NCBI GenBank assembly: GCA_009746045.1
Contig: RPFO01000240.1
Coordinates: 62,001-126,000 of the forward strand
Direction of reading: 5' to 3'
Source: Mesostigma viride
Taxonomy: Eukaryota; Streptophyta; Mesostigmatophyceae; Mesostigmatales; Mesostigmataceae
DNA: 64,000 bases
The notes under the pieces were generated by a model that did no database searches, was not told the origin of the DNA, and saw only the letters and a program-made list of their open reading frames with translations. The position numbers and the translations under genes were made by a program. Numbering within the stretch: position 1 is the stretch's first letter; every line of letters begins with the position of its first letter. Shown here piece after piece: positions 20,673 through 55,842 of the stretch.

Positions 20673-22578
20673 AGGGGGTGCGCAGCTTCCTGGGATTGGC
20701 ATCTTACTACCGACGGTTCATCCCGCGGTTTGCCACCATCGCCGCCCGATCAACGCTCTTCTCAAGAAGGGTACCCCGTTCCTCTGGGCTGAGCAGTGCC
20801 AACAGGCTTTTGAGGCGCTTAAGCGCCACCTCACCACAGCACCAGTCCTTATCCTGCCGGACCCGGCCCTTCCTTTCGTCGTGGCTACGGACGCCAGCAA
20901 GGTGGCCATCGGGGGTGTCCTCTTGCAGGACCAAGGCAAGGGTCTTCAGCCCATCGAGTATATCTCACGCACAATGATTCCGGCGGAGCGGAATTACCCA
21001 GTGCATCAGCAGGAGCTTCTGGCAGTAGTCTACAGCTGCCACACGTGGCGTCATCATCTTCTGGGGGCCCAGTTTTCGGTGGCCATTAGTGAGCAGGGGG
21101 ATCTCGACCCCCACCGCCTGGTGATCCACACCGACCACCGGCCGCTCACCCACCTCCTGGTGCAGCCCAACCTGACGCCCCGCCAAGCGCGGTGGATGGA
21201 GTACTTGTCACAGTTTGCGCCATTCAAGATCCAATACGTCAAGGGCGCGGACAACGTGGTGCCAGACGCCCTTTCGCGACGGGCGGACTATTGGTTCTAC
21301 GAGGACATGGATGTGCTTCATACCACTTGCGTACCAGTGGCCGCCCCGGGGACCGCCTACGGCGCGGAGCCACGGTCTCCCCGGGCCCGCCACCTGTTTC
21401 ATCTGGGACACACCACCAGCGATGACTTGTCACCTCTCTTGGAGGAGACGAGTGCCCACGAGGACGTGGACACCCCCGGGGAGGGGGAGGGATCGCATAT
21501 GCGCATGCCCCTTAGCCATGTGGTGCCGCCCCAGGGAATTTTTCAGCTTCAGCCGATCGGCCCGCCCACAGTCTTCTCCGAATTCGTCAACCAGGCGAGC
21601 GCGGAGACAGAACCGGCCGCGGACGCGTTCACAGTCACGTCGGACCTGGAGACGATGATCAGTCGTTTCACGGTCACGGAGGAAGCGGCGCTTGAAGCCA
21701 TCCGGGCGCATCCCCAGCAGATGGGTGCCTACCCTTGCAAGTTCCAGGATGGACGCCTGTTCGTGAGCATCCAGCCGGAGGAATGGCGGCTGTATGTCCC
21801 GGAGCTTTGTAGGGCCGCCTTGCTTCACGAGCTCCACGATTCGCTTCTAGGCGGACATCAGGGAAGCCACCGTCTTTATCCTCGGGCCCGCAAACATTTC
21901 TACTGGCCAGGGATGAAGGAGTATATTGAGACATATGTGCGCCAGTGCCCCTCGTGCCAGATCATGAAGTCCAGGAACACGGGCTCGCAAGCCGTCCCCA
22001 AGACGTTACCTGATCCGATGGGTCCTTGGGATTCTATCATGATGGACTTCATCGGCCCGTTCAAGAAGGCGAAGAGCGGCAACAGCATGGTCTTGGTGTT
22101 CGTGGACCGCCTGACGCGCATGTGTCACTTGGCCCCGTGTCCTGCCGACCTCACTGCGGAGGAGTGCGCCAAGATATACCTGACGCACGTGTTCCGGTTC
22201 CACGGGCTCAGCCGACAGTTCATCTCCGACCGCGACAAGCTCTTCACGGCCAAATTCTGGCAGGAGTTTTTCGAACGACTGGGCACCAAGGTGTCGCTGG
22301 GCACGGCCTACCACAGTTCGTCGTCACATCTGGTGGAGCGGTTGAACCGCACAGTGCAAGAGACCATGCGACACTACACCGACGCGGTGGGCAGCAATTG
22401 GGAGGATTCAACTTCTGGGCTTGGTGGAATTCTCCCTGAACAATGCTCCCCAGGCCGCCCACGGATTTACCCCCTTTTTCCTCAACTCTGGCAGGCACCC
22501 TCTCACGCCTCCCGACCTGCTTATGAGCCCCGGACTGGGAGAGGATCAGGTCAAGCTGGACACACGCCAAGGGGTTGA
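20500..22578 (+). pseudogene. Element D RNase H and integrase
   Basis: Coding sense starts at about 20610-20800. Gypsy RNase H: FVVATDASKVAIGGVLLQ, a PVHQQELLAVV Glu, LVIHTDHRPLTHLL and VVPDALSRR. Integrase zinc finger HHCC (HELHDSLLGGHQGSH to CPSCQ) and the catalytic core WDSIMMDFIGPF (D), FISDRDKLF (D) and HLVERLNRTVQETMRHY (E). All visible catalytic residues remain. The frame shifts again at about 22410 (after SNWED), leaving the last integrase part and chromodomain in frame 2. Confidence 0.85.
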
Positions 22579-23164
22579 TCGCTTGCTGCAGCGGATGCAC
22601 CAGGCTCATAACAGTGCAGTCCAGGGCTACCGCGCCGCGACCGAGCGGTATCTGGAGAGGACAGCCGGCAAGAGGGATAATCGGGCGCCGTCCATTGAGG
22701 TGGGCGATTGGGTCCTGGTGGAGGGCCCACAGATCGGACGATTCTCACACAAGGTGGAAAAGGAGCTGAAGACTAAGCTTCGACCCATGTTCCTGGGCCC
22801 CTACAAGGTTCTCACCAAGTTTGACGACGTCATGTTCCAGGTGGACGTCCCAGAGTCATGGAACCTCACGTCCAACCGTTTCCATCGTGACCAGCTCAAG
22901 TTGTACCACCAGAACACCATTCAGGGTCGGGTCAATCCCCCGGCCCCGTTGGAATTCAATCCGGACACGGGGGAACAGGAGGATGAGGTGGCAGCGATCG
23001 TGGGACACCGGGATGTCAAACGAGGTCGGGGGACCCAGCGACAGTACCGTGTGCGATGGCGATTCGCGCAGCATGAGTCTGAGGACTCCTGGCGCACTTC
23101 TACTGAGTTAGCGGGTTGCGCCCGCTTATTGGAAGCGTACAAGAAGACACACCAATTGCATTAA
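22421..23164 (+). pseudogene. Element D integrase C-terminus with chromodomain
   Basis: 247 residues continuing integrase: FSLNNAPQAAHGFTPFFLN, the GPY/F-type LRPMFLGPYKVL block, then a chromodomain at about 22980-23150 (VAAIVGHRDVKRGRGTQRQY, WRF, then SEDSWRTSTELAGC). Chromodomains on gypsy integrases steer insertion to particular chromatin. The ORF ends TAA at 23162-23164, and this end looks natural. Confidence 0.8.
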
Positions 23165-24528: not shown

Positions 24529-25225
24529 AGTTAACGTTCTTAGCACATGCAATGTGAAGGATATGGTTGCAATGCAGCAATGTGTGAATATGGTTGGAAA
24601 CGGAGCTTTGTTAAAATCGGATAATGTTTACAGCGCTCACACACTTGAGGCTTGTACACGCGCTTGCCAAGTCAAGGCACAACACGTGAGGCGGGCTCGC
24701 AAGAGATGCCCATTTGGCACTGGCCTATTGTTTATATACTTGTGCACTGTGCTTGCTAGTCCTGAGCAGCCTAGGAGGCCTGCTCAGTAATAACACCCCC
24801 GGTACAGTATTCACTACCTGTACAGCGCCCAACTCCTATACAGTAGGTCTGCCATACAGGCACGGTGACCACAGAGCACAGTCCACAGTGACTATTGCAT
24901 CTGCACCTAGAAGTCCAGGACTAAGCCTGCGGTACCAACAGACCACAGGTTAAGGTTCCTATTTCCTGCGTACGACGTATTAATCCAATACCGTCGTAAG
25001 TACAGCACCTAATTCCTGTCAGCCCAGGAATTACTGTCGACCCCATATGTCTTCGGCAAATATTCACGTCCGACTTAGAAGAACAGCCGGCTCGCGCTCG
25101 CGCGCGACCGGGAAGTCGGAACGCCATAACTTTCTTGATACTTGTCGGAATGAACTCGTTCCGGTGCCGCTGGAATCGCAGAGATATGCCGAATCAGGCT
25201 TACGCCAATGCGCTTGGCGTTAACT
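24529..25225 (-). repeat. Element E 3' LTR (minus strand)
   Basis: 697 bp, nearly identical to 40059-40756 (one base shorter at the end, and one A/G change in the GGCACGGTGACC region). Confidence 0.88.
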
Positions 25226-25247
25226 CCAATCCTTTCTTTTCTTCAGC
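25226..25247 (-). promoter_or_regulatory. Element E polypurine tract
   Basis: On the minus strand AAGAAAAGAAAGGATTGG directly precedes the 3' LTR. F has almost the same tract in the same place, supporting use as plus-strand primer. Confidence 0.7.
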
Positions 25248-25973
25248 TGTAGCAGCTCACACAAGTCTACATACAAACACACACAATGGGTACTGGATAT
25301 CCTCCCCAGACTACAAGTCACAACCCGCTGGGCATGACAGTCAGCTTGGATTCCTTATTATATGTACATAGCACCCATACTGGCTCAGGAGCACAAACAA
25401 ATTACAATGAGTCCCTATCCCTTCACGGGAGGCTCGTTGTGTTACCCATGTACAAGAGGTTGGCCAACTGTGGCAGCCCATAGGTGTTCAGCTAAGAACT
25501 TGAGAAGTATGTACAACCTTCAGGACCTTAGGCGAAACCCCACAGATCACCCACAACAGCTCATCAGAAAACATTGCTGACCCCCAGACGGAAGTCGGCG
25601 CCGGTCTGCTGCCCCTTATCGAACCAGACACAACATCTACGCGAAGCACATGCAAAACACAAGCTCCCATACTCGTTCCAACCGTGGAAAATCAGGGGAC
25701 CTGTCGCCACCTCACCAGCATGGTGGATGGGTCAGCCAGTCCGTGAAACTCCGCCTTAAGACGGCACCAGGGAATCGAACCCCGCCCACAAACCACAGAT
25801 CTGGGGAAACCTCAGACTGAGATGAAAACCCCAGATAGACATCTCTCCATCAGAGACAATGTCAGACATTCCCACACCAGAGACATGTCTCACCCCTCAA
25901 GGTGTGCTCAGGATTATGTACAATCAAGCTCCCAGCCTGATATCCAGAGACTTAAGCACCCAGCTCTCAGCTT
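25248..25973 (-). other. Element E 3' untranslated region
   Basis: About 0.7 kb after pol with no supported gene. It contains the conserved T-arm-like block at 25766-25785. Confidence 0.6.
25766..25785 (-). ncRNA. tRNA T-arm-like block in element E
   Basis: Minus strand reads GCGGGGTTCGATTCCCTGGT. CGGGG and CCCTG can pair around the T-loop TTCGATT, and GGTTCGATTCC fits the pol III B box. The identical 20-mer occurs after pol in F (37577-37596). No full tRNA cloverleaf surrounds it. Confidence 0.5.
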
Positions 25974-28900
25974 TTAGACAGATAGACCGACTTGACAGTC
26001 AGCATTCATGAGCTTCCTCAGTACATTGTACTGGGCTGGGGCCTTGTGTGGCAGCTTTGTCAATGCATCAGCAGGGTTCTCCTCGCCAGGGATATGCTTC
26101 AAGTCAACCAAACTGGCCAACTCCTTCAGCAACAAATAATCCAGGTCCCGGCTCCTGGCCAGCTGCTTGTGAACAAACTGGACCATACCCATGCTGTCTG
26201 TTAGCAACAACGTCTCCATCTGCAAGGTCCAAGGGGTAACTGAAGCCAGCTCCAGCATTAACTCCTTTATGTACAGGCTGGACTGGATCCCCTCGCATAT
26301 GGCCCTGCATTCTGCCACATCTGAACTGATACAGACCCTCTTCTGCAGTCTGCTGTACCAGCTGAACAAACTTGCCCTGCTCTGATAAAAAGCAAACAGA
26401 GCAGCAGATCTCCCCCTGACCTTGGTAACCTGGCGAGCATCCATGGAACTGTCAACAAAGATCTCCAAGGTGATAGGCTGGGTAAAGTCAATCCCAGACA
26501 AAATCAGATCAGGGGTACTCTCCACCAACCGGGCTATGACTCGAGGCTTCTCATCCTCAAGCACCTCATCAGGCATTCTGCTATGGACCATCAAAGACGG
26601 ACCACAGATGCTGGCAAACCAGGCCCACATGCCTCTCAACTCAGGTCCTGCAGCCTGGGTGATCTTCTCTGGCAAGGCCTTCACAATGGTCTGTTTATAA
26701 TCTCCTCCAGCCTGAAGCCTGATACTCCACTCCCCGTCCCTCCTGAACAGGGTAGCCTGCATTCCACAGAACACTACAGGCTTGTTGGGCTCCTGCCACA
26801 GCTCCTTGCCCAGTGAAAACTTGCCACTGATGACAGGAATAAACTTCTTTAGCCAGGTCGTGGGGGCTAGCAAATGCAGATCATCTCCATGCAAACTAGC
26901 ATACACTGGCAGACCCTCCCATTGGGCCAGCAGCAAACAGGGATCAACTGAAGACACTCTCAAGCCACACTCACTGATCAGAGCTTCCTGCAGCGTGAGT
27001 CTCCAGATGATTGGGCTCGACCTGAGTCCTTCCAGGCCCTTCAGAATAACCAGGAATTGTTGATGCAGCTCCAGCTTCCAGATGGCAGGCACCTCAACAC
27101 AGTAAGGCTCATCCTGCTTCCACACCCTCCTGGCCACTTCTGGATCAGATTTTAAAAATGCCCTCTTGAAGTCCAGCAGCACTGATGACATAGCTGCTCC
27201 CCTGTTCAGCAACCCCACGTAGAGACATAGCAAAATTCTCCATGTGTCGTGTAGCATCCCTGGCGTGTATAGCTCCTCTCCTGGCAGACTCCCCGTGCCG
27301 TGATACTCATTCAGGACAGGCCTGACATGGGGCACTGATACCTCATCCACAACCTTCCTCTTCAGCACAAATCTCAAAGCAAGCTTCCTTGATGCTGGGG
27401 GACGTCTGTCTGTTGGTGCAGCACACTCAAACTGCAACCACTCCTCCAATGCCTTGGAGAAGGCGAGCTTCCAAGCCTCAAACAAAGTAGGCGAGCTCAT
27501 CTCTTGGACCAGCTGGTCATATGTCAAAGGAGAGTGTGCAGCAAGGCTCCTGTGAGTTATGCCAATACTGCTGGGGTGCAACACAGCTGGAATCACCAAA
27601 CTGGCCGCTGGGGGCACCTCCCCTTCATCCCATTTTACACCCTTGACTGGCTTGGCCCTGCACCTGACTGGAAATGTTGTCCTGAAATTTTCTAGGGGAA
27701 TCATCCCCCAGCCATCTCTTCTCAGAGCTGTAGCTCTGATAGAAATCCCAGGATTGCCCAGAAAATTCTGACCCAAAATCACAGGGCCATCATAGTCCTC
27801 TAGGACAAGGAAGGTCACATCCACACCCATGACAGGGGCAGTAACCTCTCCCAACACCCTTAGATGCGTCCTACCACTGAAATCAGACACCCAGGGGCAA
27901 CTTGGTTCTCCGACCAGCAGTTCTCCTGTATGCTGAGGTCCCATGACAGAAACCTGTGCATTGGTATCTATCTCCATGGCAGCTACCTCAGGTTCATCCA
28001 ACTGGACAAGCTTGGACACCTTAGGCTCCTTCTTGGCTCTTTGCAAAGCCTGTACAATATCTGATAGACGCACACCCCTAGGCCTGGTGTCGGGCCGTTC
28101 CGGAGGTGCAGCCTGTCCGCCTGCTTGCCCAACCACCGTATGTGAAGGTACCCCAGGGGCCGGGCCAGGGTCACCCTGAGGGCTCGATACAGCTGTAGCA
28201 CCCTGATCAGGAAGCTCCACGTCACCCCCGCCTTGTACACCAGCGGGCACCTGGAAGAGGTCTCCTTGATTACCTCCCCGGGGACGGATCTTTGACCAGG
28301 ACAGACGGTGCACTGCTTGGGAGCCATCAATGGCCACCCAGCACTTATGGCCAGCGGCTTCTACTCGGGTCACCACCCCATCATGCCAGCTGCCACGTTT
28401 CCCTGGAAAGCTTGGTTCCTTCCACACAACAACCTGTTGTCCAACGTTAGGTTCTAGGACACTCCAGCCCTTGTCTTTCTGCCTCAGCTTGAGGAACTTG
28501 GCCTCTAGCTTCTCCTTCCATGCCTGCTCAGCATCAGCTGGCAGCATCCTGGTATGCAACATAAGAGGATTGATGGCAATGTCACCAAAGAACATGGGAG
28601 TCCTCAGGTTCAGCCTGTCCTCCACAGAACGTAGCCATGCAGATGTCACAATGGCAGATGACGTCCTTGGAATCCTCTCCACCAGCAGCACAGTCTTGAA
28701 CTCTTGGATGGCTCTCTCCACCACCCCTTGCTGGCCGTGGCTCTCCCTGGGTGTAATCAGCAACTCTGGAAACTCTGGCAGGTTCTCACAGCACTCAAAC
28801 TGAATGTCACACTGCAACAACTCCAACCCAGGGTACCTGCTCCTTGTCAACTTCAGAGCAGCAATCAATGTAGGCTTCTCCATGTCAGGCAGGATCTCTA

Positions 28901-29564
28901 GGGTCTTGTACTTGGTATATCTGTCCACTGCCACCAGCAGCTTCAAACCCCTGATTCTCTGAATATCTACCTGCACATGGCCTGGCTGCAAAATAGGAGT
29001 CCTGGCATGAGACTGCTTGGGCTTTCTAGCAACTAGCCTGCACTTGCAAGCTTGAGCAACCTGTTGGCAGATGGAGTACAACTCACTTCCTCCCAGCCGT
29101 CTAGCAACTTGCAAAGACTGAGCTGCATGGCCAAACATGGTATGCAACCTTGAGGCAATGTCATACAAGAGAGAAAACCTTTTATTGTCATTATTAGCAC
29201 TCAAGGTATGTACAGATCCCTTATGTACAGGAGGCACCAGGGTCGTGCCTGTCAGACTGTCTCCAGCCCTATCCTCATCCTGACCATCCTGTGCCAGTCC
29301 TGCACGGTCAGAATGCTTCTGAGATCCACCTGGGTCCACATCACCAGGTCCTACCTCAGGCTCAGCACCGCCATGGCGGGCACGTTGGCGAGTAACCACT
29401 GCAGCTACAGCTGGCATACTCTCTGTGGTAACCAAGCTTGCCCCATCGTGTCCAATAGGCTCTTTCACTAGAGCATGGGGCTGCCCCTCACTGCTGTCAC
29501 TAGCAGCTTCATTACACTCCCCTGGGGGCACCCTCCAGGGTTCAGGGATGTGTGCAGGCTCAAG
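25974..29564 (-). CDS. Element E Pol: integrase, retropepsin-like, reverse transcriptase, RNase H
   Basis: Residues are numbered from the GTG at 29531 (1185 to the TAA). The frame is open up to the gag TGA with no ATG, so Pol is probably made by readthrough. Integrase: HTMFGH and CQQVAQACKC zinc ligands (130-163), then D189 (VQVDI), D242 (QCDIQ) and E272 (GVVERAIQE). Retropepsin-like domain: IDTNAQVSVM (D522, with N where families have G) and VILGQNFL (585-591). Copia-type reverse transcriptase: LLDFKRAFL (D787), LKGLEGLRSSPIIW, and HGDD at 881-884 in place of YVDD. RNase H: D1027, E1074, D1112, ADALTK at 1154. The frame is intact. Copia order is PR-IN-RT-RH, so the protease position is unusual. 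Confidence 0.85.
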   Translation of the reverse strand, partial: LEPAHIPEPWRVPPGECNEAASDSSEGQPHALVKEPIGHDGASLVTTESMPAVAAVVTRQRARHGGAEPEVGPGDVDPGGSQKHSDRAGLAQDGQDEDRAGDSLTGTTLVPPVHKGSVHTLSANNDNKRFSLLYDIASRLHTMFGHAAQSLQVARRLGGSELYSICQQVAQACKCRLVARKPKQSHARTPILQPGHVQVDIQRIRGLKLLVAVDRYTKYKTLEILPDMEKPTLIAALKLTRSRYPGLELLQCDIQFECCENLPEFPELLITPRESHGQQGVVERAIQEFKTVLLVERIPRTSSAIVTSAWLRSVEDRLNLRTPMFFGDIAINPLMLHTRMLPADAEQAWKEKLEAKFLKLRQKDKGWSVLEPNVGQQVVVWKEPSFPGKRGSWHDGVVTRVEAAGHKCWVAIDGSQAVHRLSWSKIRPRGGNQGDLFQVPAGVQGGGDVELPDQGATAVSSPQGDPGPAPGVPSHTVVGQAGGQAAPPERPDTRPRGVRLSDIVQALQRAKKEPKVSKLVQLDEPEVAAMEIDTNAQVSVMGPQHTGELLVGEPSCPWVSDFSGRTHLRVLGEVTAPVMGVDVTFLVLEDYDGPVILGQNFLGNPGISIRATALRRDGWGMIPLENFRTTFPVRCRAKPVKGVKWDEGEVPPAASLVIPAVLHPSSIGITHRSLAAHSPLTYDQLVQEMSSPTLFEAWKLAFSKALEEWLQFECAAPTDRRPPASRKLALRFVLKRKVVDEVSVPHVRPVLNEYHGTGSLPGEELYTPGMLHDTWRILLCLYVGLLNRGAAMSSVLLDFKRAFLKSDPEVARRVWKQDEPYCVEVPAIWKLELHQQFLVILKGLEGLRSSPIIWRLTLQEALISECGLRVSSVDPCLLLAQWEGLPVYASLHGDDLHLLAPTTWLKKFIPVISGKFSLGKELWQEPNKPVVFCGMQATLFRRDGEWSIRLQAGGDYKQTIVKALPEKITQAAGPELRGMWAWFASICGPSLMVHSRMPDEVLEDEKPRVIARLVESTPDLILSGIDFTQPITLEIFVDSSMDARQVTKVRGRSAALFAFYQSRASLFSWYSRLQKRVCISSDVAECRAICEGIQSSLYIKELMLELASVTPWTLQMETLLLTDSMGMVQFVHKQLARSRDLDYLLLKELASLVDLKHIPGEENPADALTKLPHKAPAQYNVLRKLMNADCQVGLSV

Positions 29565-30752
29565 TCAATGATCAGCAGCCTTGCCCTTGCCCTTGTCCTG
29601 GGATGGACCAGCCTTGTCCTTGCTGCCACCCTGAGCGGGCTTGCTCTGACCTTCCTGCCTCAGGTACGAGGGACACTCATTCCTGAAGTGACCCTTCCCC
29701 TGGCAGAAATAACATTCCACCTGACTGATGTCCCGTGAGGTCCCACTGCTGGGCCCAGCCTTGGGAGGACCACCCACCCTCTTGAAGTCAAACTGGGACT
29801 GTGGATGTCCCGACTTCGGCGGGGTCCCCCGTCCAGCCCTTCTGTCACGCCCCCTCCTGGACCTTCCTCGACCCCTTGAAGAGGTCTCAGGCCCTCTCGA
29901 GGGCGCTGGGCCCCCGTGGCCCGATCCCCTCATGGACTTAACCGTGGGTTCAGTGGCCTCCTCATCACCCTGACGAGGGCGCTTACCACCCACGTACTTG
30001 CCGCTGAAACACTCATACAACTGGTCCGTCATGGCTGCCCAGCCATGGACCTGTCGCATGTGGATGGTCACATTATCCATGGTGACCGGATCCAGCTGCA
30101 GCGACTTGAGAAAGTCGCCCATGGCCATCCGATCTGCGACGAAGAAGCCCTTGGCCATGGCGTCCTCCCTCAGCTTGACGAAGTCTTCAAAGGCGTGGAC
30201 CACTAGTTGCCCCTTGATGGGCTTGTAGTCCAGGTATTCTTGCTTCAGGTGGGACCCATCTATGGTCCTCTTGTCACTCAGGAACGACCTGAGTCGCGTC
30301 ATAAACGCCGTCCAGGTGTCCCCCGCCGCGTGTCGCTCCCGAACAAACTTGAACAGCCGCCTCGCCGACTGCCGTATGTAGGCACTAGACGCCAGGATGC
30401 GAAGCTTGTCACCGTTGTATATCTCCGTGTACAAGTTCATGTCCTCTAACATCCTCTCAGCATCCCGGGGCTGCCAATTGTCCTTGATGGACTGAAACTG
30501 GCCTAGCACCGCGTACCCCTCAGCAACGGTTGGTCGCTTAGGCGCCGCTTGATCTGCGGCTGGCGCGTGCTGCCCGCCCTGCGATCCTTGGCTCTGATTA
30601 TCTGGCACCTCAGCCTGGTCTCCCAGCGCCTGGCCGTCCCCGCGTCCATCGCGTCCACCGCGTCCATCGCGTCCATCTCGTCCATCCATCCCAGCGCCGC
30701 GCCGTCCGAAGCCCATAAAGCCCGCTTGTTGGTTGATAGCTCCATCCTCCAT
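29565..30752 (-). CDS. Element E Gag
   Basis: 395 residues from ATG to TGA. The N-terminus has DGR/GGRDG repeats (22-40). A helical capsid-like region follows (residues 70-260, with FVRERHAAGDTWTAFMTRLRS and FFVADRMAMGDFLKSLQLD). An Arg/Gly-rich linker then leads to a zinc knuckle CYFCQGKGHFRNEC (CX2CX4HX4C), which binds element RNA. The C-terminus is Lys/Gly/Gln-rich. The stop TGA (29565-29567) is followed by CTT and lies in frame with pol, so a Gag-Pol fusion by stop readthrough is likely. Confidence 0.85.
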   Translation of the reverse strand: MEDGAINQQAGFMGFGRRGAGMDGRDGRDGRGGRDGRGDGQALGDQAEVPDNQSQGSQGGQHAPAADQAAPKRPTVAEGYAVLGQFQSIKDNWQPRDAERMLEDMNLYTEIYNGDKLRILASSAYIRQSARRLFKFVRERHAAGDTWTAFMTRLRSFLSDKRTIDGSHLKQEYLDYKPIKGQLVVHAFEDFVKLREDAMAKGFFVADRMAMGDFLKSLQLDPVTMDNVTIHMRQVHGWAAMTDQLYECFSGKYVGGKRPRQGDEEATEPTVKSMRGSGHGGPAPSRGPETSSRGRGRSRRGRDRRAGRGTPPKSGHPQSQFDFKRVGGPPKAGPSSGTSRDISQVECYFCQGKGHFRNECPSYLRQEGQSKPAQGGSKDKAGPSQDKGKGKAADH

Positions 30753-30859
30753 GATGGCCTCTGTTCAGATCTGCTACAGCCAGCCAAGTGGCCAAGCAGC
30801 AATTAAAGCAATATAAGCTACTGAACAAGAAAGGAAAGTGCCAAGTGTTACCACTCAGG

Positions 30860-31028
30860 CAAGACCACCACGGCTGGCCCCAGGCGCGTCCTGGTTCTCC
30901 TTGTCGCTGTCGTCGTCGCTGTCGCTCACCACAATCAGCTCTGGTACCCTGCTACCTGCTGCGCCGTCGTCGACCCGCTGTCGGCCCGCGATGACTGAAT
31001 CGTCACCGTTGGTAAAGTAGACAGGTGA
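30860..31028 (-). pseudogene. C-terminal piece of element E upstream ORF, cut off by element F
   Basis: Minus-strand open reading continuing, in the frame set by the duplicated CAACC, from the ORF at 39219-39965. It contributes about 56 codons with an acidic/Ser run (VVSDSDDDSDKENQD) and ends TGA. About 110 bases separate it from the gag start. Confidence 0.6.
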
Positions 31029-31033
31029 CAACC

Positions 31034-31649
31034 AGTTAACGTAAAGGATTTACGTTAGATGGATAGAGATTGTTACGCTCTTTCCAACGGCACCTTGAAC
31101 GCCTCATTTGGTTAAGGAACGTAAAAGTTATGACGTTTCCTAGGCTGTGCCGACAGTACCCGGCGCGCCACTGTGGGCGCGTACGGACACAGGATGTACA
31201 AGTGTCACTTTGATAGTCCGCAGGACGTTGACAGGACTTGTACAGGACTTGATGGTCAATTGATAGGTAGGCGCACTGTAGCGCGCCAGGACCTATGAGA
31301 CAATTGATGCTGAGTAGTGTACGGATAGGTCCACAGGACTAGCCGTATGGACAATTGATAGATCTGCGCGCCAAAGGCGTGCCAGAGTCTGTGTAATCAA
31401 TTGATTGACAGTTCAGCTGTGACAGTGCAGCTGAATACTTGGACGCGTCCCTAGCAAGCTATATGAGTGACTTGGTCACACCGGGACGCTAGTTCTTGCG
31501 TGCACGTTCTCTTGGCACTGCGACCCTGTCGCTGTGCTGCGTGCAGTCTTGGAAGTGACGTGACTTACGTCTGTGTTTCCTGATTATTAATAAAGGCAAC
31601 TTCCTGCAAGAACCATGGCGGAATTCGTGGCATTCTTACCCTCACAACT
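31034..31649 (+). repeat. Element F 5' LTR
   Basis: Starts AGTT with the hairpin AACGTAAA-GGA-TTTACGTT and ends CTCACAACT. It shares a CCAACGGCACC...AACG and AAAGTTATGACGTT block with the E LTR. AATAAA occurs near its 3' end. Confidence 0.9.
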
Positions 31650-31673
31650 CGTATTACACGCTCTGTCAAAAAG
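31650..31673 (+). promoter_or_regulatory. Region after the element F 5' LTR (putative primer site)
   Basis: CGTATTACACGCTC follows AACT, and E has CAAATTACAACCAG at the same point. The shared ATTACA suggests a conserved primer site. Neither starts with TGG, so a normal tRNA 3'-CCA primer is not evident. Confidence 0.4.
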
Positions 31674-32384
31674 ATGCCAAATTCGGAAGAATTTCGGATT
31701 CCGGACGATGAGGAAATAGCCGCTCCGCCGGCTGGTTCTTCGTCAAGACCAACTGTGCCGTCGTGGCAACAATTGCTCGACGAAGTTACAGTTTCGCTCG
31801 ACGAGCTTCATCGTCAGCAGCGTGCAGCTCACGCATTGCTCGGGGATAACCCCGAGGACCCCGATTTGCCAGCACTGGTGCCGGCTGTTCGCGCATTATT
31901 GGACCAAATCCGCAACATTTTATCGACATTTACGGTCCAGGTGCGGGGAGGTTTGCGGTCGGTGACCGAAGTCACGACTGCCATTGAGGAGTTGGACAAC
32001 ATCATCTCTTCACTCACCGGTTACCAGAGAAACCTGCAAAACTGGGCATCGCTTCGCACGGGGGGCGCGCCGGCGGTGTCAACAAATTTGTTTCAGGATC
32101 TCGCGCTGCTATCGCTGCTGACTCGCGGCGTACGCAGTCGTGAGCGCCAGGTTTTAATTAACCTGGTGGCATTTCTCGCCTCTGTGCGAGAGTGGATTCC
32201 CGCGGGGTGGGAATTATTGACGATCTTTACACATCCTCTGCGCCTCGTCGCGCGTCGGCGCGTCGCAACTTACGCGGCGGGGAGCACGCCGGTTTTAATT
32301 CATACCGGTGCAGGTCCGGAGCTGGATATGGAGGATCGTGAGTTCGTATACACGTACTGCGACTTCAGGGGCCTTGACTACTAG
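31674..32384 (+). CDS. Upstream ORF of element F, unrecognised
   Basis: 236 residues starting 24 bases after the LTR and ending TAG, 168 bases before gag. It has an acidic N-terminus (EEFRIPDDEE), then mostly helices with heptad-like leucines (SWQQLLDEVTVSLDELHRQ, LVPAVRALLDQIRNIL), a basic segment (LRLVARRRVATY) and an acidic C-terminus. No known domain is recognised. Element E has an ORF in the same place with similar layout but little clear sequence identity. Possible roles are a capsid-like, chaperone or regulatory protein. Position suggests it is the first protein translated from the element RNA. Confidence 0.65.
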   Translation: MPNSEEFRIPDDEEIAAPPAGSSSRPTVPSWQQLLDEVTVSLDELHRQQRAAHALLGDNPEDPDLPALVPAVRALLDQIRNILSTFTVQVRGGLRSVTEVTTAIEELDNIISSLTGYQRNLQNWASLRTGGAPAVSTNLFQDLALLSLLTRGVRSRERQVLINLVAFLASVREWIPAGWELLTIFTHPLRLVARRRVATYAAGSTPVLIHTGAGPELDMEDREFVYTYCDFRGLDY

Positions 32385-32552
32385 TCGGCCTAATTTTCTT
32401 CTGCAGTACTTGTCGACATTTTTTTGTCGAATTTCGGCGGCAATTCGCGGGGGCGGCGCGACACCGGCGCAGGCGGCAGTGGCGACACAAAAATTTTGTA
32501 CATATTTTCTGCTGCTTTGTTAAGGTGTTCTTTGAATAGCTGGTAGTGCAGG

Positions 32553-33668
32553 ATGGCTGAGGGACGCCGTAGCAAGGGTCCAGCCAGTGGGAATAATAAT
32601 GGGGGTGCTGGTAGTGGAACCGCTCACGTAGATGACGTGGGGCTTACCGGAGAGATTACCAACCTTCCTCACAATAATAATAATGCACAAGCTATTCATG
32701 GCTTTGATCTTACCACACAGGGTCTTTTAATTGTCAATCAGTTGCAGCCTGTAACCTCAGACTCCAAGCCTAAGCAGGCTGAAGAGTTTGTGGAGGGATT
32801 GGAAGGGTTCCCTAGCTTGTACGGTGGTACAAATTACTATCAAATCTGGATAGGCAGTAGCACTTTTGGCAAGTGTACTGACCAGATTAAGGACCTAACC
32901 AGGGAGTGCAAAAAGGCCAATAAGGCCTGGGCACTGTACGTGGCTGAGCTGAAGGAGCTGCTGGAGGACCAACGAAAGAAGGTCGGCATCCATTGGCAGG
33001 ACAAGTACCAAGGGTGGGAGGTCAAGGGGGACCTGATCCAGAACTTTCTCAACTATTGTAAGATGGTTGAGGAGGGCAGGGCTCACGGCTTTAATGTCGC
33101 TGATAACATAGCCCTAACCAACTGGCTCAAGGTTTCTGGGCTGGATAAGGCGACACGTGGCTCCTTAAAAGTCATGTGTGCCCCACACTCTACCCTGAAG
33201 GCCTACAAGGTCATCATTAAACAAGCTCTCGAGGCAGAGGAGCTGTTTGAGGGTGGAGTGCCAGCAGTGAAGGCTACCCAGGCAGGCGGGCGTACCCAGG
33301 GTGGCTCCAAGACGTCTGAGGCTGACCGAAGCCAAGGAGGGCGTAGGGGCAACCATCACAAGCGCAAGGGAGATCATTCACCTGATTCTGACAGGAGGTC
33401 ACACTCCAAGTCGGTGTTCAGGCGGGTGGGTGGTCAGCCCAAGCAGGGCAACGCGTCTGACAATGGGGGCAGTGGCCAGGGCAAGTCCAAGATACAATGC
33501 TACCTGTGCAAGGGGTGGGGGCACATCAAGAAGGAGTGTCCCAGCTTCAAGAAGTCCCAGGGCCAGGGCAGCAACAAGAATAACAACAACAACAAGAAGA
33601 ACAACAACAAGTCCCAGGCAGGCCAGCCTTCAAAGGGCAGTCAGCAAGAAGACAACAAGGAGCAGTGA
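32553..33668 (+). CDS. Element F Gag
   Basis: 371 residues, ATG to TGA. Asn/Gly-rich N-terminus, a helical capsid-like region (residues 80-240, with YQIWIGSSTFGKCTDQIKDL and VADNIALTNWLKVSGLDKA, comparable in position to the E Gag), a basic linker, then the zinc knuckle CYLCKGWGHIKKEC (CX2CX4HX4C) and a Lys/Asn/Gln-rich tail. The stop TGA (33666-33668) is followed by CTG. The frame beyond it is open for 47 codons to the first Pol ATG and on to 37295. Confidence 0.85.
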   Translation: MAEGRRSKGPASGNNNGGAGSGTAHVDDVGLTGEITNLPHNNNNAQAIHGFDLTTQGLLIVNQLQPVTSDSKPKQAEEFVEGLEGFPSLYGGTNYYQIWIGSSTFGKCTDQIKDLTRECKKANKAWALYVAELKELLEDQRKKVGIHWQDKYQGWEVKGDLIQNFLNYCKMVEEGRAHGFNVADNIALTNWLKVSGLDKATRGSLKVMCAPHSTLKAYKVIIKQALEAEELFEGGVPAVKATQAGGRTQGGSKTSEADRSQGGRRGNHHKRKGDHSPDSDRRSHSKSVFRRVGGQPKQGNASDNGGSGQGKSKIQCYLCKGWGHIKKECPSFKKSQGQGSNKNNNNNKKNNNKSQAGQPSKGSQQEDNKEQ

Positions 33669-36600
33669 CTGTCTGAGGCAACCCCTACACACCTTAATTC
33701 ACCCAAGGGGGAGGCCAGGTGCTCCAATGCAGATTTTATATCTGGGCAACAAGAGGGTGATCTCCAGGTTCAGTGTGGCCCCAGGTCACCTGGAGAGGTA
33801 CAGGTTCCTATGAAGACGTCCTTGACAGCTGATGCAGCTGTAAGTATGTCTGACCCTATGCATCCTCGTGCTGGGCACGAGGGTGGACCTCTCATTTTGA
33901 GAGAAACCAATGTACAACCACAGAGGGGTGTGAAGGCCTCTGGTGGTATGCATGTGGTCCCTGCTGGCGGTCCAGGTGTTGGGCATGAGCAGGGTGACTC
34001 AGGCTCTGAGTCAGAACAGGATGGAAGTCAGCATGGTGATGCTGGACAACCTGACAGCACAGTCCTGACTGTGCCAGGGACTGCTTCCTCTGTGTACCAG
34101 GAGTTGGGTGCCCGAATCCACAACATGTTTGGGCATGCCACTTCTCTGTCAAACAACTTTGCCTTCCGTATGGGCAGGGCACCCCTTCTTAAGGCGTGTC
34201 AGCAAGCTGCCTCACGGTGTAAGTGCCAGTTGTCCTCCAACAAGCCCAGGAAATCACATGCCAAAGCTCTACCTCAGAGCATTGGTGATCTGCAGTGTGA
34301 TATCCAACACATCAGGGGCATGCAACTGTTGGTGTGCGTGGACAGGTACACGAAATACAAGGTGCTAGAGCATTTACCTTCTATGAAGAACAGGTACTTG
34401 CTGGCTGCCCTGCAGAATGTAAGAGCCAAGTTTCCTACCACAAGGATCCAGGTGGACATGCAGTTTCAGCATCTCAAGGGTGATCCTACCCTTCCTGAGT
34501 TGCTGGTTACACCTAGGGAGGCTCATGGGCAGCAGGGTGCTATCGAGAGGGCAATCCAGGAGGTCAAGAAATTGATCATCTCTGAAGACTGGGTACCCTT
34601 GTCTGCACCTGCACTTGTCAGGAGTGCATGGCTGAGGAACGTGGAGCAGCAGCTGAACAGCAGGGTTAACTTCTACTATGATGGAGTTGCTGTCAGCCCA
34701 ATGGGTCTATATCATGGCCTGTGCCCACCACATGTGCTGGAGGGCTGGAAACATGCTGCACATGTCACCTTTGCCAAGCTGAGGGAGAAGGACCGGGGTT
34801 GGAAGATGCTGGAGCCACAAGTGGGTCAGAAGGTCCTAGCTTGGAAGGAACCTAGCCTTTATGGCAAACGTGGTAGCTGGAGTCCTGGGGTGGTTACCCA
34901 GGTTGATGAAGCTAGCCACGCATGCTTGGTCAGCATGGAGGACGAACCAAAGCATGTACACCGGCTGAGTTGGTCATATGTCAAGCCTAACCTGATGAAT
35001 GAGGGCAGTCAGGCACAAGGCTCACAGGATCTGCAGGATTTTCAGGTCCCAGGTGACATCACTGACGCAACGACCACATCTGTTGCAGGGGAATCTGTCA
35101 GCCCTGGCCAGGTTGCAGAGGTACTTGTTGAACAGGCTGCAAGGTCAACAGCTGGGGAGTCAACTGTCAAGCCCAAGGCACTAACCAAGCCCAGGGGGAC
35201 AAGTTTGGCTGGATTGATTGGGGCTCTACAAAGGGCCAAGAAGCAGCCCAAGGTAGCCAAGCTCAGGTGGCATGGCAATCTGGGGCTGGACACTGCCTTA
35301 GAGGTAGACACTAATTCTCAGGTCTCCATTATTGGGACCAGGGCTGCAGCAGGGTACAGCATGTCTGAACCCAGCTATCAGTTTGTGTCTGACTTCAGTG
35401 GCGGGGTACACGTGAAGGTACTGGGTGAGGTATTCATTCCTATCCTTGGACAGGACACTGCTTTTTGTGTCTTGGAGGGCTATCAAGGACCTGCTCTTCT
35501 GGGGCAGAATTTCCTATGCCAGGATGGGGTAGTGATCACGTCCTCTCTCCTGACTAAGGAAGGGGCTGGTCAGGTCCCACTGATTAATTTCAGGACCACT
35601 CACCTATCACGTGCAGTAACCAGGACGGTTAAGCGTGTGCAAGTGTGCCAGGGGCAGGAGCCCTTGGTTGATGACCTCATACTGCCAGCTGCTAGTCATC
35701 CAAGCAGTTTGGGCATTGGTCCTCACTCACTTGCTGGACACAGCCCTATCAACTACCAAGGCCTGGTGAAGCTCATGTCCTCTCCCATTATGTGTCCCCA
35801 GGTCACACTGGGTCTCATTAAATCTGGGGAGGATTGGATCTCCAAGAAATGCGTGGAACCTGTCAATGACCTGCCTCCTGCACGACGTCTACTCAAGCTC
35901 AAGTTTGTCATCAAGATGAAGGAGGTGGACGGGGTCAAGGTACCACATGTCAGGCCAGTGCTGAATGAGTTCAAGGGTACTGGTGAGTGCACTGCTGAGG
36001 AGTTGTATACCCCTGGCATGCTGCATGATACTTGGAGGCTGCTGCTGTGTGTCTTTCTAGGCCTTCTCAACAAGGGCTTGGACTATGGCTCAGTGGTGAT
36101 AGACTTCAAGAGGGCATTTCTGGAGGGTGATGCAGATGTGGCACAGGAAAAGTGGGAGGGCAAGACGCCTTTCTATGTTAGGGTGCCTGCTGTATGGAAA
36201 AGGGACATCCACACGGAGTTCCTTAAAATCCTCAAGGGCCTGGAGGGCCTGAGGTCAAGTCCAATAATCTGGAGGGAGACTCTCAACCGTTTCCTGAAGG
36301 AGCATTGCAACTTGAAGGTCTCTCCTGTAGACCCCTGTCTGTTTCTGGGGCAATGGGAAGGCCTGCCAGTGTATGCTTCGCTGCACGGGGATGACCTACA
36401 TCTGATAGCTCCCACGTCGTGGCTTAAGGAGCTGATCTCCATCATTAAGTCCAAGTTTCCTCTGGGTAGGGAGCAATGGCAGGTGGAGAATGAGCCTCTG
36501 CTGTTTGTGGGCATGGAGGCCACACTGGTGAAGAAGGGAGGGGAGTGGCGTATGCTGCTGGTGGGGGGCAATGACTATCAAGAGACCCTCATTAGCAAGC

Positions 36601-37295
36601 TTCCTCCAACCATCACACAGGCACTGTGTCCCATGGTGAGGGGCATGGTTGCTTGGGTGGCAGGCATTTCCAGGCCAGACCTCATGGTCATAGCCAGGTT
36701 GCCTGATGACATGCTGGTGGAGCTAGGGTCTGCCAAGGTGGCTGATCAGGTCAGGGCTTCATCTGGCATTCTGTTGTCTGCAGTGGATTTATCACAACCC
36801 ATTTGCATGGAGCTGTATGTGGATAGCTCAATGGACAGCAGGCAGGTCTCCAAGGTCAGGGGCAGGGCTGCAGGGCTCTTTGTGCTCAGACAGGAAGGCC
36901 TGGGGAGTTTGGTGAGCTGGTTTAGTCGCCTGCACAAACGGGTGGCTGTCAGCAGTGATGTGGCAGAATGCAGGGCTATTTGTGAAGGCATTCACACAAG
37001 CCTTTATCTGAAGGAGTTGCTTCATCAGATGACTTCTAACACTCCTTGGCCACTTCAGGTTACCACTCTTCTAAAAACAGACTCCATGGGGATGGTGCAG
37101 TTTGTGCACAGGCAGATGGCCAGAAGTAGGGACTTGGATTATCTCCTTCTTAAGGAGTTGTCCTCCTTGGCCAATATTGAGCATATCCCTGGGGTTGACA
37201 ATCCTGCTGATGCTTTGACCAAGCTAGTGCAGAAGGCAGCAGTGCAATACAAGGTTCTTCAGTCTCTGATGGACCCATCTCAGCAAGCTGTCTAA
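33669..37295 (+). CDS. Element F Pol: integrase, retropepsin-like, reverse transcriptase, RNase H
   Basis: Residues are numbered from the ATG at 33810 (1161 to the TAA), with 47 more open codons back to the gag TGA. Integrase: HNMFGH and CQQAASRCKC (104-139), D164 (LQCDI), D216 (IQVDMQF), E246 (GAIERAIQE). Retropepsin-like: EVDTNSQVSIIG (D500) and ALLGQNFL (562-569). Reverse transcriptase: VIDFKRAFL (D765), LKGLEGLRSSPIIW, HGDD at 859-862. RNase H: ELYVDSSMDS, SSDVAECRAICEG, LLKTDSMGMVQF, ADALTK. It aligns with E throughout but is clearly diverged, so the domain order is a property of the lineage and not of one damaged copy. Confidence 0.87.
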   Translation: MSEATPTHLNSPKGEARCSNADFISGQQEGDLQVQCGPRSPGEVQVPMKTSLTADAAVSMSDPMHPRAGHEGGPLILRETNVQPQRGVKASGGMHVVPAGGPGVGHEQGDSGSESEQDGSQHGDAGQPDSTVLTVPGTASSVYQELGARIHNMFGHATSLSNNFAFRMGRAPLLKACQQAASRCKCQLSSNKPRKSHAKALPQSIGDLQCDIQHIRGMQLLVCVDRYTKYKVLEHLPSMKNRYLLAALQNVRAKFPTTRIQVDMQFQHLKGDPTLPELLVTPREAHGQQGAIERAIQEVKKLIISEDWVPLSAPALVRSAWLRNVEQQLNSRVNFYYDGVAVSPMGLYHGLCPPHVLEGWKHAAHVTFAKLREKDRGWKMLEPQVGQKVLAWKEPSLYGKRGSWSPGVVTQVDEASHACLVSMEDEPKHVHRLSWSYVKPNLMNEGSQAQGSQDLQDFQVPGDITDATTTSVAGESVSPGQVAEVLVEQAARSTAGESTVKPKALTKPRGTSLAGLIGALQRAKKQPKVAKLRWHGNLGLDTALEVDTNSQVSIIGTRAAAGYSMSEPSYQFVSDFSGGVHVKVLGEVFIPILGQDTAFCVLEGYQGPALLGQNFLCQDGVVITSSLLTKEGAGQVPLINFRTTHLSRAVTRTVKRVQVCQGQEPLVDDLILPAASHPSSLGIGPHSLAGHSPINYQGLVKLMSSPIMCPQVTLGLIKSGEDWISKKCVEPVNDLPPARRLLKLKFVIKMKEVDGVKVPHVRPVLNEFKGTGECTAEELYTPGMLHDTWRLLLCVFLGLLNKGLDYGSVVIDFKRAFLEGDADVAQEKWEGKTPFYVRVPAVWKRDIHTEFLKILKGLEGLRSSPIIWRETLNRFLKEHCNLKVSPVDPCLFLGQWEGLPVYASLHGDDLHLIAPTSWLKELISIIKSKFPLGREQWQVENEPLLFVGMEATLVKKGGEWRMLLVGGNDYQETLISKLPPTITQALCPMVRGMVAWVAGISRPDLMVIARLPDDMLVELGSAKVADQVRASSGILLSAVDLSQPICMELYVDSSMDSRQVSKVRGRAAGLFVLRQEGLGSLVSWFSRLHKRVAVSSDVAECRAICEGIHTSLYLKELLHQMTSNTPWPLQVTTLLKTDSMGMVQFVHRQMARSRDLDYLLLKELSSLANIEHIPGVDNPADALTKLVQKAAVQYKVLQSLMDPSQQAV

Positions 37296-38244
37296 GCTGG
37301 TGCATGGTTATAGGGCATTGGAGAGCAGATTGTGTGGTAGTGTCAGCATTGTGACTGGCATAATACCTGTATTTTAGTCTGTACTAAGGCTCATGGACCA
37401 TGGTACACTCACTCTGATTTTAATCAGGATACAGCCAGGTTTTGGCTGGGGTTCATGCTGTTGACTACACAAGGTTGACAGGTCCATTACAGACCATGTA
37501 TTCTATTTTAAAAGAAATGTATATTTGTACATACCTCTCACAATGGTCTGGGAACCTTTATTCTGGGGTTTATAGGGCGGGGTTCGATTCCCTGGTATTA
37601 TGTTTCTACAAGCTGGCCTGTTCAGGTGTTTGCCTGTTCAGACTTCCCTAGTTCCCCAGGGCAGGATTTAATTGTTGCCTATGTGTTTCATTTTGTCATT
37701 TGTTTGCTGTGGCAGTTTACCATCTGGCAAGTAGACGGGCGCCGTAAGACGGGCGCCAATAGACCCCTGTTGAGAGAATGACAGGCAAACTATTGTAATA
37801 CGCCTTACTTTGTCAAGTGGTATTTTAATTGTCATGGATTTATTGTACTTATATTGAATATGTACTGGGTTTTATGGGATTAGTATCTGGGATTAATGTA
37901 ACTCACCGCCAGAAGGTCATTGTACTGGAGGCTCTACCGAGGTGATGGGATTAATTCCTGGAGAAGACCTCATAGAATTAACCTGTATGTATTTAATTTT
38001 GTGTGCTTCTAATATCTGGTGGTACTCTGTAATGCCACTTCCATAGGTTTTTATCCATTTCTCATGAATGGTTTTCCCTGTGGCAGATCTGTTTCTTTTC
38101 CAGTTCCTTAAAAGAAAGGGCTGGGGGAATGGCAATGGCCATTAAAGACATCTGTTCAAGCTTCAAGCTGGAGTGAAGGACATTTCAAGCTACTTCAAGG
38201 GTCCCTGGCAGGGGATGTGATCCCTAAAGAAAAGAAGGGATTGG
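37296..38244 (+). other. Element F 3' untranslated region
   Basis: About 0.95 kb without a gene. It holds the T-arm-like block at 37577-37596 and ends with the purine tract AAGAAAAGAAGGGATTGG (38227-38244) next to the 3' LTR. Confidence 0.65.
37577..37596 (+). ncRNA. tRNA T-arm-like block in element F
   Basis: GCGGGGTTCGATTCCCTGGT, identical to the minus-strand block of E at the same position after pol, although surrounding bases differ. It can form a five-pair T stem with loop TTCGATT. Confidence 0.5.
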
Positions 38245-38861
38245 AGTTAACGTAAAGGATTTACGTTAGATGGATAGAGATTGTTACGCTCTTTCCAACG
38301 GCACCTTGAACGCCTCATTTGGTTAAGGAACGTAAAAGTTATGACGTTTCCTAGGCTGTGCCGACAGTACCCGGCGCGCCACTGTGGGCGCGTACGGACA
38401 CAGGATGTACAAGTGTCACTTTGATAGTCCGCAGGACGTTGACAGGACTTGTACAGGACTTGATGGTCAATTGATAGGTAGGCGCACTGTAGCGCGCCAG
38501 GACCTATGAGACAATTGATGCTGAGTAGTGTACGGATAGGTCCACAGGACTAGCCGTATGGACAATTGATAGATCTGCGCGCCAAAGGCGTGCCAGAGTC
38601 TGTGTAATCAATTGATTGACAGTTCAGCTGTGACAGTGCAGCTGAATACTTGGACGCGTCCCTAGCAAGCTATATGAGTGACTTGGTCACACCGGGACGC
38701 TAGTTCTTGCGTGCACGTTCTCTTGGCACTGCGACCCTGTCGCCTGTGCTGCGTGCAGTCTTGGAAGTGACGTGACTTACGTCTGTGTTTCCTGATTATT
38801 AATAAAGGCAACTTCCTGCAAGAACCATGGCGGAATTCGTGGCATTCTTACCCTCACAACT
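38245..38861 (+). repeat. Element F 3' LTR
   Basis: 617 bp, one base longer than the 5' LTR (an extra C in GTCGCCTGTGCTG). It ends CTCACAACT, after which a further insert follows. Confidence 0.9.
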
Positions 38862-39214
38862 ATTGTATTGCATTACTTAACTAAGATTGGCGTTCGCTCC
38901 TGGGGTACCGGGTTCGAATCCTCTCGGAGGCACGGAAATATTTGCGGCGGGTAGGCCTGGGAGGCCGAGTCGAAATATTTGTGGATTTCTATGTTTGGCG
39001 GAGGCCGGGTAGGCCAAGTCGAAATAGGAATTACGGCGTGAGGCTGGGAATAGCCGAGTCGTAATGAATCGAGTCACCTCGGTAACGAGCGGTGTGTGCG
39101 GAACGCCGGATTTCCCCACGCGGCCCAATTTTAGTTAAGTAATGCAATACGCATTACTTTTGCATACTTGCAAGTATGCAAAAGTATGCAAAAGTAATGC
39201 GTATTGCATTACTT
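38862..39214. mobile_element. Inverted-repeat insert at the end of the element F 3' LTR
   Basis: 353 bp between two AACT copies (38858-38861 and 39215-39218). Positions 38865-38890 and 39125-39150 are a 26-bp inverted repeat with one mismatch. Downstream, 39133-39218 folds back on itself around CTTGCAAG. A B-box-like GGGTTCGAATCC lies near 38910, and GCCGAGTCG-type motifs recur three times between 38960 and 39060. It has no ORF of note. It could be a MITE or a SINE-like foldback element. Confidence 0.55.
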
Positions 39215-39218
39215 AACT

Positions 39219-39965
39219 CAACCCGTCGTTGGTACCTCGCGGATTGTACGTTGGCACCTCGTGGTCGCCACGTGCCTCGTCGCCTAGCCCAGCGACACCC
39301 CCTTCTCCCACCTCAAGGTCACTATCGTACCCAAGAGGTGCAAACTCTTCCCAACGCGTCACACGAACGCGAAGGGGCGGGGGCAGCTCCTGAAAAGGAA
39401 CTCTTACTCGCTCTGGAAACCTGCCGACTCTTGTCGCGCGCTGTCCTCCGGCGATGGCTTCCGCTGTCGCCCCGACCTCTGCAAGCCGCCTGTGATGCTC
39501 CGCTCCGCGTCGTTCACGCCTAACTGGCCCCGCTGCAACACCCTCGTCGCCGATGCCGCCTGCGAAAGCACGTGGTACTCCCGCGCCCGCTACTGTCGGT
39601 ACAAACTCGTGTCGCCCTGCGCCAGCTGCCTCAGCAACCTCGCCTCGCCTTGCTGCCAACTCCGTCCGCACTCGCTCTGCTAAGGCTGTAATCACAGTCT
39701 GGATGCCGACCAACCCGTGAAGCTCCTGCTCAAGGTCGTCGATGCTCCGGTGCTCCGGAATGACGATGGTTTGTACGTGTCGCAGAATTCGCTCCCAATC
39801 TTCGACCTGGTCGTCGACGAATTGCACGAAGCTGCGATTTACAGGCGGACGATCTGCAAGCAATAAAGATAGATCCCGAACGACACGGCGTAATTCAGGA
39901 GAAATCGAACCCCCAGCAGACTGCCGAAACCGGAAATCCTGCTGCCGTTGTTCCTCCTGCACCAT
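39219..39965 (-). CDS. Upstream ORF of element E, 5' part, cut by element F
   Basis: ATG at 39965. About 249 codons are read before the F insertion, and the visible stop comes from inserted sequence; the original frame continues at 30860-31028. Helical N-terminus (SPELRRVVRDLSLLLADRP, QVEDWERILRHVQTIV, a leucine-rich LEQELHGLVGIQTVITALAERV), then an Ala/Gly/Arg-rich middle and a segment LRVRVTRWEEFAPLGYDSDLE. No family is recognised. It occupies the place of the 236-residue ORF of F, between LTR and gag. Confidence 0.55.
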
Positions 39966-40058
39966 TCACCACCAGACGAGCTCCTCGCGTCGTCAACGCT
40001 GCACACCGCAACCGGCAACGACCCTCCTGGCCGTTCCGCTGAGACTGGTTGTAATTTG

Positions 40059-40756
40059 AGTTAAACGTTCTTAGCACATGCAATGTGAAGGATATGGTTG
40101 CAATGCAGCAATGTGTGAATATGGTTGGAAACGGAGCTTTGTTAAAATCGGATAATGTTTACAGCGCTCACACACTTGAGGCTTGTACACGCGCTTGCCA
40201 AGTCAAGGCACAACACGTGAGGCGGGCTCGCAAGAGATGCCCATTTGGCACTGGCCTATTGTTTATATACTTGTGCACTGTGCTTGCTAGTCCTGAGCAG
40301 CCTAGGAGGCCTGCTCAGTAATAACACCCCCGGTACAGTATTCACTACCTGTACAGCGCCCAACTCCTATACAGTAGGTCTGCCATACAGGCACAGTGAC
40401 CACAGAGCACAGTCCACAGTGACTATTGCATCTGCACCTAGAAGTCCAGGACTAAGCCTGCGGTACCAACAGACCACAGGTTAAGGTTCCTATTTCCTGC
40501 GTACGACGTATTAATCCAATACCGTCGTAAGTACAGCACCTAATTCCTGTCAGCCCAGGAATTACTGTCGACCCCATATGTCTTCGGCAAATATTCACGT
40601 CCGACTTAGAAGAACAGCCGGCTCGCGCTCGCGCGCGACCGGGAAGTCGGAACGCCATAACTTTCTTGATACTTGTCGGAATGAACTCGTTCCGGTGCCG
40701 CTGGAATCGCAGAGATATGCCGAATCAGGCTTACGCCAATGCGCTTGGCGTTAACT
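40059..40756 (-). repeat. Element E 5' LTR (minus strand)
   Basis: 698 bp. On the minus strand it starts AGTTAACG with the hairpin ACGCCAA-GCGCA-TTGGCGT and ends GTTTAACT, followed by CAAATTACA. Confidence 0.88.
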
Positions 40757-55823: not shown

Positions 55824-55842
55824 TGGTATCGGAGGATTGTTC

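Follow-up and report, generated by a model that had tools for sequence, protein, structure and literature searches.

In two nested retrotransposons of Mesostigma viride, the Pol polyprotein has a retropepsin-like domain that is preceded by integrase and followed by reverse transcriptase, which is neither the Copia nor the gypsy order. Both elements lie in a stretch of 64,000 nucleotides from contig RPFO01000240.1; this whole stretch is called the window here, and positions are counted from its first letter. Each is a long terminal repeat (LTR) retrotransposon, one on the forward strand (element F) and one on the reverse strand (element E), and in both Pol is a single open frame with the order integrase (IN), retropepsin-like protease (PR), reverse transcriptase (RT) and RNase H (RH). 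E and F probably represent an old, recently multiplying lineage of Copia type, in which the retropepsin between integrase and RT works as proposed below. The wider proposal, put forward only tentatively, is that of a third stable Pol arrangement: an ancient lineage with a working, non-glycine Asp-Thr-Xaa retropepsin between integrase and RT, either acquired separately or moved there, and with Pol made by UGA readthrough. Coordinates of all features are collected in Table 1.

A first-pass annotation of the window had placed the domains in this order in both elements, had seen no protease in Gag, and had read RT motif C as HGDD; these points all hold. The two Pol proteins can be aligned from the linker before integrase through to the end, with 48% identity over 1196 columns. 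Identity is 57% in the integrase core, 46% in the PR core, 58% in RT and 70% in RNase H; it is low (20-22%) in the two linkers that precede integrase and PR, and is 45% in the stretch behind PR. Outside the LTRs of F and E, a motif scan (three sense frames, segments of at least 60 amino acids) finds no second retropepsin-like site with a downstream hydrophobic-hydrophobic-Gly, and no protease site between Gag and integrase; the sole candidate lies behind integrase. The same scan gives one further DSS site in E, which lacks the downstream hydrophobic-hydrophobic-Gly.

Relatives of E and F can be found in the same genome. Twenty stretches of 10 kb adjoining F copies were fetched (200 kb of the 440-Mb assembly, a non-random sample, with two stretches partly masked), and lineage Pol matches are found by tblastn in six of them. 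Four further families are present, with identities to E or F of 39-59% (L037), about 28-42% (L047 and L048) and about 25-50% (L034); the end piece in another stretch, L029, belongs to the L037 family (98% alike), and L046 holds copies of E and F themselves. The four further families are split over several frames, so their pieces were searched separately. Five of the six families (F, E, L037, L047 and L048) share a collinear series of integrase, PR-like domain, RT and RNase H; in L034 the last three are present and an integrase match was not detected. Because these older relatives share it, the order appears to be an established arrangement and not a one-off accident, as the annotation had argued from E and F: three of the four further families show it in full. 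HGDD occurs in all six. In the five families that could be aligned for integrase, both catalytic Asp columns are invariant and the Glu is kept in four (L047 has Asp). In addition, 29 residues separate the second Asp from the Glu (D263 and E293 in F; counted by eye in E); the usual spacing in Copia and retroviral integrases is 35. The C-terminal part of the E integrase has a weak Agenet resemblance (E=0.077). A separate locus, L025/L026 (C1215:1132023-1141405), contains an F copy inserted in the RT of another member, 55-60% alike to L037.

The core motif of the middle domain begins with Asp-Thr in all six families, the third residue is N, N, N, K, Q or D, and the next is always S or A. The annotation had given the triplet as DTN, which is correct for three families and does not stand as a fixed form, the others having DTK, DTQ and DTD. 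A flap-like DFSG is found in five families (DFGS in L047), and behind the flap a hydrophobic-hydrophobic-Gly follows in five of the six (LLGQ, ILGQ, ILGQ, LIGQ and LLGE; not in L034). The Gly of Asp-Thr/Ser-Gly is near-invariant in known retropepsins (MEROPS A2); here it is absent from every family, and this is a point against a working protease. We nevertheless consider the domain probably active, mainly because the motif scan found no other protease candidate in E or F, yet both have spread recently. The alternative that survives best is a retropepsin fold kept without catalysis, as a linker or dimerisation part, with maturation left to a host protease, to a protease acting in trans, or hardly occurring at all. 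The replacement of Gly by N, K, Q or D did not keep copies from multiplying, and ordinary Copia and gypsy elements of the host could supply a protease; against this stand the invariant Asp and Thr, the S or A that always follows, the lack of any other candidate in E and F, and the general need of LTR elements for a protease, as known from Ty1 and retroviruses. Such a loss of catalysis is unlikely on balance, but is to be taken seriously.

Retropepsin ancestry is a separate question, addressed here by profile comparisons. With hhalign, the six-family PR core matches a profile of two sequences, the gypsy PR of the window and a DDI1 chain, with a score of 23.0 over 79 columns and DT on DT. None of 300 column shuffles reaches this score (mean 10.2, standard deviation 1.9, maximum 17.3); reversing the core brings the score to 9.2. 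Leaving out one family at a time gives scores of 19.2-25.0, with three of the six matches shrinking to 18 columns around the DT motif; the three distant families on their own score 18.8, again over 79 columns. Against the window gypsy PR alone (19198-19617), the core scores 18.07, also with DT on DT, and one of 200 shuffles is higher. Three of 275 ORF decoys exceed 18.07, and since all three belong to the lineage itself (F, L034 and L048), no unrelated decoy (0/272) scores higher; decoys bearing the lineage's or gypsy's own motif and low-complexity decoys had been removed beforehand. A scan for the composite motif through 49 records (ORFs of at least 90 amino acids in 341,696 unmasked bases) matches only the true gypsy PR, once, and lineage members at 14 places, eight of which are F copies that had been fetched for matching F; this is a check of specificity and not a blind test, because the third motif position was widened after the variants had been seen.

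Plain sequence searches lend a retropepsin weak support. In the PDB, retroviral proteases make up 10 of the 11 chains listed for the F segment up to E=10, and the Pfam family gag-asp_proteas matches the C-terminal part of the E segment at E=0.15-0.24, below its cut-off, and a longer L037 ORF weakly at E=0.22. Several results weigh against a retropepsin. The lead PDB match, to tethered dimers (E=0.032), sums two weak copies, which singly give 8.5 and 7.8 bits with E-values of 19 and 30; because it adds the two, it is not level with the E=0.043 of the window gypsy PR against DDI1. The best single-copy protease, at E=1.1, is weaker than that gypsy match. With hmmsearch, the six-family profile has no PDB match at E-values up to 10. 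Of the six cut segments, a single one has a protease match in Pfam, and that one is below threshold. AlphaFold models of the segment are poor (predicted local distance difference test, pLDDT, of 36 and 49), and fold searches with the pLDDT-49 model, itself a poor one, show no retropepsin among the best 50 of 91 matches from Foldseek or the best 50 of 63 from VIA-align. A merely coincidental motif in a segment of some other kind would account for the poor models, the profile without a PDB match and the single-copy E-value. It would leave unexplained the in-register match across the domain, which neither the 300 shuffles nor the unrelated decoys equal, and a motif scan that picks out only the true gypsy PR and lineage members; we judge it improbable. 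The annotation's view of the segment as a retropepsin is backed by this profile evidence. As judged from these comparisons, the middle domain is very probably of retropepsin ancestry.

Affiliation with Copia can be assessed from RT and from the arrangement of the other domains. The Pfam family RVT_2 matches RT of F (E=4.2e-6; 27 bits, with the cut-off at 31.6), L037 (E=3.5e-5) and L048 (E=1.8e-5), and RVT_1 matches none of the proteins scanned. Two points count against a Copia label: none of the three RVT_2 scores reaches the curated cut-off, and E and L047 have no RVT_2 match at E up to 1. An ordinary Copia RT of the host (L029:3042-4484; RVT_2 E=1.3e-43, motif C HVDD) matches RT of F and L048 by tblastn, with E=1.6e-5 and 4.2e-5. 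Ordinary Copia elements and elements of the E/F type coexist in the host genome. Further Copia pieces are seen in the window at 4371-6470 and 55837-57933, with gag followed by Pol_BBD and a motif, DSAAS, that also lacks the usual Gly, and a gypsy element with a DTGAS protease, RNase H and integrase occupies 18598-23164. The earlier assignment as Copia-like has the weak RVT_2 matches in three families in its favour, and E and F share with Ty1/Copia (Pseudoviridae) the position of integrase before RT, RNase H as the last domain and target duplications of 5 bp, within the 4-6 bp of that superfamily. They differ from it in that the protease comes after integrase, the LTR ends are AG...CT, a TGG primer site is missing right behind the LTR, and a Gag stop UGA precedes Pol.

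Could the element instead be gypsy-like in essence (PR-RT-RH), with integrase moved to the front? The PR profile resembles gypsy and DDI1 retropepsins and not detectably the host Copia PR, and Gmr1 gives a gypsy precedent for a moved integrase (PMC8220671). The gypsy/DDI1 profile itself shows no detectable likeness to the host Copia PR (score 12.4), and for that reason the PR comparison says nothing about origin, whether moved or acquired anew. RT points the other way, with RVT_2 in three families, RVT_1 in none and the host Copia RT matching two of them. Both marks of Ty3/gypsy elements, integrase behind RNase H and an RVT_1-type RT, are absent from the E/F lineage, and a query with the window gypsy RNase H and integrase (without RT) reached no lineage member. 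A gypsy origin of this kind is very improbable, and a Copia-type lineage is preferred.

An order produced by rearrangement or misassembly of one or two copies is refuted by the occurrence of at least 40 F and at least 39 E Pol copies in separate positions, where the F copies read differ in flanks and duplications, and by recurrence of the order in families about 30% identical. These Pol copies (the E count includes the one in the window) are full length, stop-free and printed as 100% identical; the searches scored the best 40 candidates for F and the best 39 for E, so that the true numbers are likely higher. The window E copy has a small private difference, as it scores 2759.7 bits against 2753.5 for the other 38. 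The F copies checked are separate insertions, as their flanks and target duplications differ. Searches of viral, phage, plasmid and genome contig sets gave no relative outside this genome (the viral contigs were searched with E, with an E/F alignment and with five families), which says little about range because eukaryote genomes are barely covered there. The gypsy protein, searched against viral contigs to gain more retropepsins, gave no match. The host assembly (440 Mb in 2243 contigs) has 33 places that match chlorophyll a/b-binding proteins, exon pieces among them. Taken as a single domain, the light-harvesting protein read from stretch L049 matches best, among the chains shown, an LHCII-type chain of Chlamydomonas (6kac_Y; 386 bits), and a green alga is the likely host; a light-harvesting polyprotein of Euglena (9vfj) had ranked first through a score that adds two domains, and Euglena was rejected as host.

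Upstream of Pol, E and F have the same gene order, with a first ORF followed by Gag with a CCHC knuckle. The first ORFs of the two show no sequence similarity to each other; an extra ORF before Gag is seen in three families (F, E and L037, the last at L037:6614-7609). The Gag-Pol boundary can be read in four cases (F, E, L029 and L048), and in three of these, F, E and L029, Gag stops at TGA-CT with Pol in the same frame. The context UGA-CUA is known to make stops leaky. A single frame across UGA-CU in three families suggests that Pol is made by readthrough. L048 speaks against this, as its presumed Gag frame ends in TAA with Pol in another frame, and readthrough is therefore not common to all families. 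In the L037 copy, which is of the same family as L029 (98%), a TGACTA string is one base out of frame.

F is nested within E, and the E copy is the older of the two. The LTRs end in AGTTAAC...ACAACT in F and AGTTAA...GTTAACT in E, and neither pair is TG...CA, the usual LTR ends in Ty1/Copia. A polypurine tract ending in GGATTGG precedes the 3' LTR in both, and no TGG-type tRNA primer site is found right behind the 5' LTR of F (31650-31690) or E (39960-40058). For comparison, both ends of 10 other F copies were fetched. Both edges can be located in seven; in the other three the 3' edge was not located, and in one of these (L018) bases are masked there. A matching 5-bp target duplication stands right at the LTR ends in six of the seven, the exception being L019/L020. 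The duplication of L027/L028 says little, because its site sits within a GCGTA repeat.

The annotation had carried F to 39218. The element actually stops at 38861, and 38862-39218 is a separate insert of 357 bp with inverted ends, between the 3' LTR of F and the right-hand CAACC of its target duplication. This insert is not behind the 3' LTR in the seven of 10 other F copies with the 3' edge located, no further copy is found among the 49 records, and no tRNA is detected inside it. It looks like a miniature inverted-repeat transposable element, with a strong palindrome at 39130-39218, and it contains GGTTCGAATCC, which we take to resemble a tRNA B-box.

Table 1. Features of elements F and E, in window positions.
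Feature	Position	Strand	Remarks
Element F, LTR retrotransposon	31034-38861	+	LTRs 99.8% identical; 5-bp target duplications in other copies
F 5' LTR	31034-31649	+	Termini AGTTAACG...CACAACT
F first ORF, upstream of Gag	31674-32384	+	236 amino acids; no Pfam family above cut-off
F Gag, CCHC zinc knuckle	32553-33668	+	Pfam zf-CCHC E=0.0052, below its cut-off
F Gag stop TGA-CTG	33666-33671	+	Candidate readthrough site; Pol in Gag frame
F Pol, IN-PR-RT-RH	33669-37295	+	1208 codons; one open frame
F integrase	34104-35003	+	Zinc finger, D-D-E core, C-terminal part; about residues 146-445; Pfam rve E=0.039, below cut-off
F retropepsin-like domain	35289-35558	+	VDTNSQVS residues 546-553; D547-T548-N549 at 35307-35315; LLGQNFL 610-616
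F reverse transcriptase	35739-36668	+	HGDD residues 906-909 at 36384-36395; Pfam RVT_2 E=4.2e-6
F RNase H	36786-37226	+	About residues 1040-1186; alignment with four other families; AECRA and NPADA.TKL kept in 5/5
F polypurine tract AAAGAAAAGAAGGGATTGG	38226-38244	+	Directly before 3' LTR; near-identical tract in E
F 3' LTR	38245-38861	+	One single-base gap against 5' LTR
Element E, LTR retrotransposon	24529-40756	-	Interrupted by F and the 357-bp insert; target duplication CAGCC on both sides
E LTRs	24529-25225 and 40059-40756	-	
E first ORF	39213-39965	-	Cut by F insertion
E Gag, CCHC zinc knuckle	29565-30752	-	Pfam zf-CCHC E=1.4e-4, above its cut-off
E Gag stop TGA, then CTT	29562-29567	-	Pol in Gag frame
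E Pol, IN-PR-RT-RH	25974-29564	-	1196 codons; one open frame
E integrase	28272-29174	-	
E retropepsin-like domain	27714-27986	-	DTN at 27960-27968

The elements may work as follows. A single transcript would encode the first ORF, Gag and then Pol in the Gag frame, and a small share of ribosomes would pass the Gag UGA (followed by CU) to give a Gag-IN-PR-RT-RH protein. In the particle, two PR domains would pair, each lending one catalytic Asp of the DT(N/K/Q/D)(S/A) motif, and Gag and Pol would be cut. Integrase, the first enzyme of Pol, would be freed on the N side, and PR may remain attached to RT. RT-RH would then copy the RNA, making use of the polypurine tract, and integrase would insert the copy with a 5-bp duplication; we infer that E and F moved with the enzymes they encode themselves, and not in trans.

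Known systems share single aspects of this arrangement. Tca2 of Candida albicans is a Copia element with the ordinary Copia pol order, Gmr1-like elements still have the protease before integrase, and foamy virus has its integrase behind RT. As with F and E, a UGA stop lies between gag and pol in Tca2 (PMC2194720). Gmr1-like elements also have a changed pol order, with integrase upstream of RT, and differ in having a gypsy RT (PMC8220671). In foamy virus the protease, with the motif DSG, stands directly before RT, as in E and F, and remains on it (PMC6669543); this PR-RT could be a model for activation by dimerisation. The sections available of Kojima 2025 describe Troyka and other LTR lineages with PR, RT, RH and IN, and the IN-PR-RT order is not described in those sections of the survey (PMC12440569). 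Literature searches, with subscription papers and Repbase outside their scope, returned no paper with the IN-PR-RT order, while the control spelling PR-IN-RT was readily found; to that extent they agree with the annotation, whose author knew of no named lineage with this combination.

What follows concerns both the enzyme and the classification of such elements. Pol order is a standard character for sorting LTR retrotransposons, and classifiers based on order would miss or misfile elements such as E and F. The loss of the catalytic Gly, with Asp-Thr fixed, would provide natural variants with which to study the requirements of an aspartic protease. If the proposed reading is true, a deep, multi-family lineage fitting neither the Copia nor the gypsy order would mean that the protease is able to change its place in Pol.

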